Source: Anaerolineae bacterium
GTDB taxonomy: Bacteria > Chloroflexota > Anaerolineae > Anaerolineales > Villigracilaceae
Assembly: GCA_022013685.1 (NCBI GenBank)
Contig: JAKLPV010000027.1
Span: forward strand, 1 to 64,000
Direction of reading: 5' to 3'
DNA length: 64,000 nt
The notes under the pieces are model-generated. The model worked only from the letters and a program-made list of their open reading frames with translations, made no database searches and had not been told where the DNA came from. Both the position numbers and the translations under genes were made by a program. Positions 60,483-63,857 of the stretch are shown piece by piece. Position 1 is the stretch's first letter. Every line of letters begins with the position of its first letter.

Positions 60483-62135
60483 TTATTTCAACATCGGCAT
60501 CTTAATCCCGTGCCGCTTGGCGGCGGCGATGGCAATTTCATAGCCCGCATCCGCATGGCGGACAACGCCCATGCCGGGATCGGTCGTCAGTACTCGCTCC
60601 AGGCGTTTTGCGGCTTCAGGGGTGCCGTCTGCCACGATCACCTGCCCGGCGTGCTGGCTGTAGCCCATGCCCACCCCGCCGCCGTGATGGAAGGAGACCC
60701 AGGTCGCCCCTCCGACGATGTTGATCATCGCGTTGAGAATTGCCCAGTCGCTGATCGCGTCCGAGCCATCCAGCATGGATTCGGTCTCGCGGTTGGGGCT
60801 GGCGACCGAGCCGCAATCGAGGTGGTCGCGCCCGATCACGATCGGCGCTTTGAGAGCGCCTTTTGCCACCATCTCGTTGAACTTCAGCCCGGCCCTGGCG
60901 CGTTCACCGTAGCCCAGCCAGCAGATGCGCGAGGGCAGCCCCTGAAACGGAACCCGCTCGCGGGCCATCTTCAGCCAGCGATGCAGGTGCGCGTCTTCGG
61001 GGAAGAGTTCCATCACGGCTTCGTCGGTGCGGTAAATGTCTTCCTTGTCGCCCGAAAGCGCCACCCAGCGAAATGGCCCTTTGCCCTCGCAAAACAGCGG
61101 GCGGATATAGGCCGGAACGAAGCCGGGGAATTCAAAGGCATCCGTCACACCGTAGTTATAGGCCTGCTGGCGGATGTTGTTGCCATAATCAAAAACTTCC
61201 GCGCCTGCTTTCTGGAAATCGAGCATGGCCCTGACGTGCTTTGCCATCGAAGCCATCGCCATCTTTTTATATTCTTCGGGATTGGTAATTCGTAATTCGT
61301 CCGCGGCGGTCACGCTCAAGCCCGAAGGCACATAATACAGAGCTTCATGGGCCGAAGTCTGGTCGGTGACCACATCCGGGATAACGCCGCGCAGCACCAG
61401 TTCCGGGTAAATATCGGCCGCGTTGCCGACCAGGCCGATCGAGATGGGCCTCCCGTTGGCTTTGTTCTCGTCAACCAGGGTCATCGCCTCTTCGAGTGTA
61501 TCCACCACCGTATCGACATAGCCGATCGCGCGTCGCCGTTCAGCCCGTTCTTTATCGACCTCGACGATCAGGCCCACCCCTTCGTTCATCGTGATCGAAA
61601 GCGGCTGTGCGCCACCCATGCCGCCCAACCCGGCGGTCAGCACGAACTTGCCCTTGAGCGTGCCCCAACCTTTGAGTTTGGCCAGTGCGCCGAAGGTCTC
61701 ATAGGTGCCCTGCAGAATACCCTGCGTGCCGATGTAGATCCACGAACCGGCGGTCATCTGGCCGTACATGATCAATCCCTTTTTGGCGAGCTCGTCGAAA
61801 TGTTCCCAGGTGGCCCAATGTGGCACCAAGTTCGAGTTGGCGATCAGCACTTTGGGCGCGTCCTTGTGGCTTTTGAAGACCACTACCGGCTTGCCAGACT
61901 GCACCAGCAGGGTCTCGTCTTCTTCAAGGTTCTTAAGCGATTCAAGAATGGCATCAAACGACTCCCAGTTGCGGGCGGCCTTGCCGCGCCCGCCGTAAAC
62001 CACCAGATCTTCGGGTTTTTCGGCCACTTCCGGGTCGAGATTGTTTTGGATCATGCGATAGGCGGCTTCGCTGAGCCAGTTTTTGCAAGTCAGTTTTGTC
62101 CCGCGCGGCGCGCGGACGATGCGGGGTTTGGACAT
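60483..62135 (-). CDS. hutU: Urocanate hydratase
   Basis: The 550-residue enzyme has the family's normal length and strong matches: [71 protein letters not shown], the NAD-binding Cys segment [19 protein letters not shown] and [15 protein letters not shown]. It converts urocanate to imidazolonepropionate in histidine breakdown. It stands alone here; hutH, hutI and hutG are not in the window. Confidence 0.97.
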
Positions 62136-62210: not shown

Positions 62211-62250
62211 AAAATAAAAACAGTTCCCAACGCTTATGCGCCGGGAACTG
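62211..62250 (-). terminator. Terminator of the peroxiredoxin gene
   Basis: CAGTTCCC (62221-62228) pairs with GGGAACTG (62243-62250), and on the minus strand TTTTTATTTT follows. It lies 20 bp after the peroxiredoxin stop. Confidence 0.88.
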
Positions 62251-62270
62251 CGATTTTCTCTTTTACAAGG

Positions 62271-62984
62271 TTACTTTTCCATCTTGGGATTCCAGACTTC
62301 CCAAACTTTGCCGACCAAATGCGGGCCAGGTTTCAGCGTGGGCTGGCCGGGTTCCCAACCGGCAGGAGTGGCTTCCTTGCCACCGGATGCGCGCACGAGT
62401 TGGAAGGCCTGGACCTGGCGCACGGTTTCGGCGAGTTTTCGCCCAACCGGCGGGGTCATCACTTCCATCGCCTGGATGATGCCATCCGGGTCGATGATAA
62501 AGCGTCCGCGCATTTCGATGCCCTGGTTTTCATCCCAAACGCCATAAGCGCGGCCTACATTGCCGGCCTGGTCTGAAGCCATGTGAAAGGGCACACCGCC
62601 ATCGACCATCTTGACCAATTCGTTGTCGTTCCACATTTTATGAACAAAGTGACTGTCAACACTGACCGAAATAACTTCGACCCCCAATTTTTGCAATTCA
62701 GAATATTTGTCGGCGACCGCCGACACTTCTGTCGCTCAGACAAAGGTGAAATCGCCTGGGTAGAAGCATACCATTACCCATTTCCCGGCAAACTCCGAGA
62801 GGCTGACACTGGTAAAGCCGCCCTTGTAATAGGCTGGGGCGGTAAAATCTGGGGCTTTTTGCCCGACACGTGCTGTCATAGTGCTCTCCTTTTTTTCTAT
62901 AATTTGTTCGTTGGGCTGGTCTTTGGGCGTTTCGCCGACGACCGAGCCGCTGACACGTGCACATCCTTGTGGTTGCTCTGCCAT
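62271..62984 (-). CDS. Selenocysteine-containing peroxiredoxin (in-frame UGA at 62738-62736)
   Basis: Read through one UGA, the 237-residue frame is a typical AhpC-like peroxiredoxin: APDFTAPAYYKG, FAGKWVMVCFYPGDFTFV-U-ATEVSAVADKYSELQKLGVEVISVSVDS and FIIDPDGII. The UGA falls at the peroxidatic Cys of TFVCPTE. A SECIS-like stem-loop follows. No C-terminal resolving Cys is seen, so it would be a 1-Sec enzyme; a Cys lies nine residues before U. Two starts each have AAAGGAG upstream: ATG 62984, adding a 35-residue tail (MAEQPQGCARV), and ATG 62879, giving the usual MTARVGQKAPDF start. It reduces peroxides, using a thiol partner. It would be split by standard annotation. Confidence 0.88.
62699..62731 (-). 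promoter_or_regulatory. Bacterial SECIS element candidate
   Basis: Starting 4 bases after the UGA, the minus strand folds as lower stem CAGAA/TTCTG, an internal loop (G against AATA), upper stem TGTCGGC/GCCGACA and apical loop GGUC. The GU of the loop is at positions 22-23 counted from the U of UGA, against 23-24 in E. coli fdhF, whose loop is also built on GGUC. This geometry is what SelB recognises. Confidence 0.82.
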
Positions 62985-63164
62985 AAAATCTCCTTTCAGT
63001 TCATCGGATGTTGTACAAATTTATTATACGCCTTGTCCTTTTTGGGTGGAACAGGTAAATGTCATAACTTTGAGAATATCTGTCATGATTTCTTTTCCAA
63101 AACCGGCTTCCGGGTATAAGCGCGCTTGATAACCATCGATAACCTAATATAATATTTGTGGATG

Positions 63165-63230: not shown

Positions 63231-63857
63231 ATGGGTCTTAACAGCAATTCACCCCTGCTTGAAAACATCGCGAACGATAACATCGACGTTGGCTCTCGCC
63301 TGCGTGTAATCCGCAGTAGCCAGGGACTTTCCATCCGCGCGCTGGCCGAACGCAGCGGGCTAAACGTCAATACTCTCAGCCTGATCGAGAATGGGAAGAC
63401 ATCCCCCAGCGTTAGCACCTTGCAAGCGCTGGCACAGAGCCTGGCGGTGCCGATCAGTTCATTCTTTGAGAGTGTCAGGGGGCAGCAAAAGATCGCTTAT
63501 CAAAAACACGGCAAGCGTCCCCATGCCGCGTTCTTCCATGGAAGTATCCAGGACTTGGGTGCGGGCATGGCGCGTTTGGGCGCAGAACCGTTGATCGTGA
63601 CCCTGAAAGCCGGAGCCGATAGCGGCAAAACGCCGATTGTGCATACCGGGCGCGAGTTTGTTTACTGCCTCGACGGGCCGGCCGAGTACCTGGTGGACGG
63701 CACGGCTTACCTGCTTGAATCGGGCGACAGCCTGCTCTTCGAGGCTTACCTGCCGCACCGTTGGCGCAACCTGTCTGAGCAGCAATCCCGACTTTTGCTG
63801 GTGCTTTGTCCCACCGATGAGCGTGACCAGCCTCAGGAAAGACATTTCGCGCGTTAA
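63231..63857 (+). CDS. XRE-family regulator with cupin domain
   Basis: The 208-residue protein has an N-terminal XRE helix-turn-helix (about 18-75: RLRVIRSSQGLSIRALAERSGLNVNTLSLIENGKTSPSVSTLQALAQSL) and a C-terminal cupin (about 130-195: GREFVYCLDGPAEYLVDGTAYLLESGDSLLFEAYLPHRWRN). This class (PuuR-like) senses small metabolites and often controls amine, amino-acid or transport genes. GGAGG lies upstream of the ATG. The next gene starts 25 bp downstream and is probably its target or operon partner. Confidence 0.93.
   Translation: MGLNSNSPLLENIANDNIDVGSRLRVIRSSQGLSIRALAERSGLNVNTLSLIENGKTSPSVSTLQALAQSLAVPISSFFESVRGQQKIAYQKHGKRPHAAFFHGSIQDLGAGMARLGAEPLIVTLKAGADSGKTPIVHTGREFVYCLDGPAEYLVDGTAYLLESGDSLLFEAYLPHRWRNLSEQQSRLLLVLCPTDERDQPQERHFAR

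Follow-up and report, generated by a model that had tools for sequence, protein, structure and literature searches.

The frame at 62984-62271 on the minus strand of the 64-kb window, which is the whole stretch of DNA analysed here, is almost certainly an intact gene for a selenocysteine (Sec) peroxiredoxin, prxU, in which a UGA codon is read as Sec with the help of a downstream hairpin. The gene belongs to the already known selenoprotein family PrxU and is a new member of it, since its read-through product scores above the family cut-off and is 64% identical to the PrxU of Peptoclostridium acidaminophilum. As such, it is a well-supported selenoprotein that ordinary gene calling overlooks.

The prxU frame, its UGA codon and its surroundings

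The frame and the codon on which the reading turns are as follows.

62271-62984, minus strand: prxU, selenocysteine peroxiredoxin, long form of 237 aa (translation with TGA as U; NF040737; identity to P. acidaminophilum PrxU)
62736-62738, minus strand: UGA, predicted selenocysteine U83 and peroxidatic residue (TGA in 91/91 sequences; near the start of model helix 81-92)

The frame comprises 237 codons, and its lone internal stop is the TGA at 62738-62736, preceded by ...YPGDFTFV and followed by ATEVSAVADKY... The list of open reading frames splits the gene into pieces of 82 and 151 aa, in agreement with the preliminary description, which had noticed two fragments in one frame around a single UGA and had foreseen two truncated proteins from a standard gene caller. 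Pfam PF00578 (AhpC/TSA) spans both halves as one domain (residues 40-172, E 3e-40). The read-through product matches the NCBIfam profile NF040737 (peroxi_PrxU) over positions 2-233 of 233 with 389.1 bits against a cut-off of 270, and it reaches 194.2 bits with the AhpC profile TIGR03137, below the equivalog cut-off of 272. The annotated prxU of P. acidaminophilum DSM 3953, formerly Eubacterium acidaminophilum (NZ_CP007453.1, WP_084481301.1), encodes a protein described by Sohling et al. 2001, as cited in PMC13188914. The 64% identity to this protein extends over 230 residues, and U83 aligns with its U84; the relationship to a known Sec peroxiredoxin with the same Sec site, pointed out earlier, is thus borne out by the alignment. 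The loss of the flanking Pro (U-A-T-E), taken at first for a local peculiarity, does not stand: P. acidaminophilum PrxU also has FTFVUATEVSAVA, so the Ala after Sec is a PrxU signature, and as a novelty it is ruled out. UPTE instead of UATE marks a minority branch of PrxU. One gene of this branch (L113:1501-2208), 56% identical, is carried by a cold-seep Chloroflexota plasmid of 180 kb and keeps the TGA and its own compensated hairpin.

To compare the codon among homologues, we assembled 91 sequences: the window gene, the best 80 loci kept from the genome collection with the window protein as the query, additional loci from Chloroflexota, and the genes of P. acidaminophilum and ZRK35. The Sec codon is TGA in all 91 (the window gene and 90 homologues), never TGC or TGT, and is TGA in every one of the best 80 loci, a selection that leaves farther Cys orthologues uncounted. 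By record titles, the homologues come from Anaerolineales, other Chloroflexota, Acidobacteria, Beta- and Gammaproteobacteria, Actinobacteria, Phycisphaerales and one Spirochaetota bin; most are metagenome-assembled genomes, and single taxon labels may be wrong. Residues 73-86 around the UGA are invariant among the 81 closest sequences, in keeping with the earlier argument that conservation on both sides speaks against decay. As the preliminary description proposed, the UGA falls at the predicted peroxidatic position of an AhpC-type peroxiredoxin. The core of the PrxU family, as sampled here, therefore holds Sec without Cys substitution across several phyla.

These data bear on the possibility that a Cys peroxiredoxin gene owes its TGA to a nonsense mutation or to an error in sequencing and is thus decaying or miscalled. 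A single base change from TGC or TGT would suffice, and a standard gene caller does return two fragments; however, the codon is TGA in 91/91 sequences, which span several phyla, and this rules the possibility out. The downstream part is, moreover, fully conserved, with synonymous sites constrained for the hairpin, and the sel genes are present in the assembly (see below), so that we give a broken or misread gene practically no chance against an intact selenoprotein gene.

Upstream of prxU, a sigma-70-like site lies at 63202-63173 on the minus strand, and a terminator-like hairpin follows the gene.

62220-62251, minus strand: terminator-like hairpin after prxU (14-pair stem, T tail; shuffled sequences have no fewer such sites)

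Because of these two elements, prxU may be transcribed alone. A divergent XRE-cupin gene (63231-63857, plus strand), PuuR-like at a score below cut-off, has its upstream region in common with prxU and encodes a possible regulator of it. The downstream gene is hutU for urocanate hydratase (60483-62135, minus strand; TIGR01228, 951.8 bits).

The hairpin and the selenocysteine machinery

Bacterial SECIS elements have a small apical loop with a G, just 3' of the UGA (PMC1088965). The prxU hairpin fits this description.

62708-62725, minus strand: bSECIS-like hairpin, 7-bp stem UGUCGGC/GCCGACA, loop GGUC (fold, covariation, wobble-pair ranks, loop codons)

It begins 10 nt past the UGA, with the apical loop 17 nt downstream, and its folding z is -2.7. 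An Rfam scan of the 64-kb window gave no match, and no Rfam family scores the hairpin; we therefore relied on covariation. In a 30-sequence alignment, stem covariation is 0.338 compared with 0.094 for shuffled alignments, none of 500 shuffles reaches the observed value, and slid controls give at most 0.097. Excess complementarity, calculated for 27,261 wobble-position pairs of the gene, is highest at Ser88-Ala91 and second highest at Val87-Asp92. The four inner stem positions pair in 91/91 sequences, with G-C, A-U, C-G and U-A all occurring at the Ser88/Ala91 wobble pair, and 71-72 of the 91 also keep the three outer pairs. The loop codons Ala89 (GCG in 87/91) and Val90 (GTC in 87/91) are the most fixed among invariant residues with several codons. 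Since the constraint sits at synonymous sites, protein selection does not explain it. The bSECIS-like element anticipated after the UGA is thus present as a covarying hairpin.

The assembly that contains the window (5.28 Mb in 239 contigs, 99.6% complete, 5.3% estimated contamination) carries selA (527.7 bits, cut-off 268), selB (339.8 bits, cut-off 242), selD (352 bits, cut-off 125) and tRNA-Sec (68.9 bits, cut-off 47). ARAGORN independently calls the same tRNA SeC(tca). The preliminary description had staked its reading on these genes, and all four score over their cut-offs. Owing to this fragmentation and estimated contamination, the link between the prxU contig and the sel genes depends on binning, which is unlikely to matter in view of the same-family genomes: three of these (G055, G072 and G248) have prxU with TGA together with tRNA-Sec. 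Among 301 Chloroflexota genomes, tRNA-Sec accompanies TGA-containing PrxU in 10/10 cases, a co-occurrence that is uninformative because 247/301 have tRNA-Sec. The selD of the assembly (L018:1468-2535, G000:C176) is itself a selenoprotein gene with an in-frame TGA (U22, SSCAG-U-ASK), a well-known arrangement.

The frame would likewise be open if UGA were read as another amino acid, through genome-wide recoding or a suppressor. However, the ordinary genes in the window follow translation table 11 in their reading and their stops, and among the families searched in the assembly an in-frame TGA otherwise occurs only in selD, a known selenoprotein. The UGA of prxU comes with a bSECIS-like hairpin and a complete selA/B/C/D set, it lies at the Cys/Sec site of a peroxidase, and the closest characterized relative is a selenoprotein. 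Decoding as a different residue is accordingly extremely improbable, and Sec is the residue that the sequence predicts at this codon.

Two in-frame starts and the N-terminal arm

Two start sites, each behind a Shine-Dalgarno (SD) sequence, lie in the prxU frame, and two invariant cysteines precede U83.

62990-62995, minus strand: SD AAGGAG of the long start, ATG 62984-62982 (sequence; SD in 76/86 loci)
62886-62891, minus strand: internal SD AAGGAG of the short start (sequence; codon bias; shuffle test)
62877-62879, minus strand: internal start ATG (M36) of a proposed 202-aa short form (ATG/GTG conservation)
62961-62963, minus strand: Cys8, invariant, in the GCAR motif of the N-terminal arm; may serve the long form as resolving thiol (Cys in 90/90; arm 1-33 with pLDDT under 50)
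62766-62768, minus strand: Cys73, invariant, on the strand preceding the active site (Cys in 91/91; strand 69-74 in the model)

The internal AAGGAG lies 6 nt before the ATG at 62879-62877. At M36, ATG occurs in 74/90 sequences and GTG in 10/90; in the remaining six, an in-frame ATG sits a few codons off and likewise follows an SD. These start-site counts, like those that follow, come from related sequences and are hence not independent events. The two codons under the internal SD are strongly biased: Lys32 is AAG in 56 cases and AAA in none, compared with 748:464 elsewhere in the same genes, and Glu33 is GAG in 67 cases and GAA in none, compared with 614:803. Internal SD matches of at least 6 nt are found in 69/84 sequences; synonymous shuffles average 25.8 and never exceed 35. 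An SD precedes the long start in 76/86 loci and both SDs occur in 70, whereas a group of mostly Thiobacillus-like sequences is without the internal one.

The extension between the two starts is selected as protein, since Cys8 is invariant and Arg10 near-invariant while synonymous codon choice is free at both (Cys8 is TGC in 58 and TGT in 32), and since variability over residues 7-10 is 0.06, 0.06 and 0.46 at codon positions 1, 2 and 3. With some hesitation, we propose that PrxU genes make two nested isoforms via two ribosome-binding sites and that a mobile Cys8 would resolve the selenenic acid. The short form would be a bare peroxiredoxin and the long form would add a disordered arm with Cys8; residues 1-33 have a pLDDT under 50 in the structure model and are probably disordered. 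If so, one gene would yield a 1-Sec and a Sec/Cys peroxidase, possibly mixed in one oligomer, and the conserved internal start hints at different roles for the two forms.

A competing explanation, which concerns the starts and not Sec, is that translation begins at M36 alone and that the extension lies outside the translated or mature protein. The strong conservation of the SD and ATG/GTG at M36 agrees with it, as does the predicted short form of P. acidaminophilum, 203 aa long with its Sec at 47, which presumably matches the published protein. On the other side, most loci have a separate SD for the extension, which is under the protein-level selection described above. The seleno-peroxiredoxin CLOST_2406 of Clostridium sticklandii is, in addition, annotated as a 240-aa protein whose Sec is residue 84 (PMC3091704), in line with the long form. 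A single start at M36 is therefore rather unlikely. The conserved internal start may be the only new part, as it is apparently undescribed: our search of open papers returned nothing relevant on PrxU isoforms or internal starts.

Proposed catalysis and comparison with known peroxiredoxins

In the structure model, U83 is near the start of helix 81-92, a placement like that of the peroxidatic residue of peroxiredoxins, which suggests that U83 has this role. SelB with Sec-tRNA would decode UGA codon 83 as Sec, with the downstream hairpin as a guide. Peroxidase activity is likewise expected from the sequence: the U83 selenol would reduce peroxides and become a selenenic acid, which would then be reduced by a thiol. 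AhpC normally resolves with a C-terminal Cys, which this protein does not have; the thiol would hence be either an external one of the thioredoxin type or the Cys8 that the flexible N-terminal arm brings to the long form. The AhpC resolving segment reads EVCPAKW in PDB entry 1we0 and EATPAGW in the window PrxU, and position 206 is Thr or Met, with Cys in only 2/81 sequences. In the open papers searched, we found no study of seleno-peroxiredoxins in Anaerolineales, and this PrxU adds a selenoprotein to that group.

AhpC, the typical 2-Cys peroxiredoxin (TIGR03137; 1we0), shares the fold, the T-x-x-C(U) active site and the 1-cysPrx_C region with the window PrxU. However, the window PrxU has Sec for Cys, an N-terminal arm with Cys8, and Thr206 in place of the resolving Cys. 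The nearest Cys-type homologue seen (G089:C13; L114:254-982, minus strand), from another Chloroflexota genome, has FTFVCPTE and passes the PrxU cut-off with 306.9 bits; Phe takes the place of Cys73 in it, and the GCAR arm is missing. C. sticklandii CLOST_2406, likened here by annotation, belongs to a different phylum, and its Sec position (84/240) matches that of the window long form (83/237). The closest correspondence is with P. acidaminophilum PrxU, which has Sec at the same site, the UATEVSAVA motif, the N-terminal GCAR arm, the Cys73 equivalent, the internal SD and ATG, and a hairpin after the UGA. The two differ in host phylum, in the hairpin loop (AGUU in P. acidaminophilum and GGUC in the window gene) and in the neighbouring gene, which encodes an Mrp/NBP35-type ATPase in P. 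acidaminophilum and urocanate hydratase in the window.
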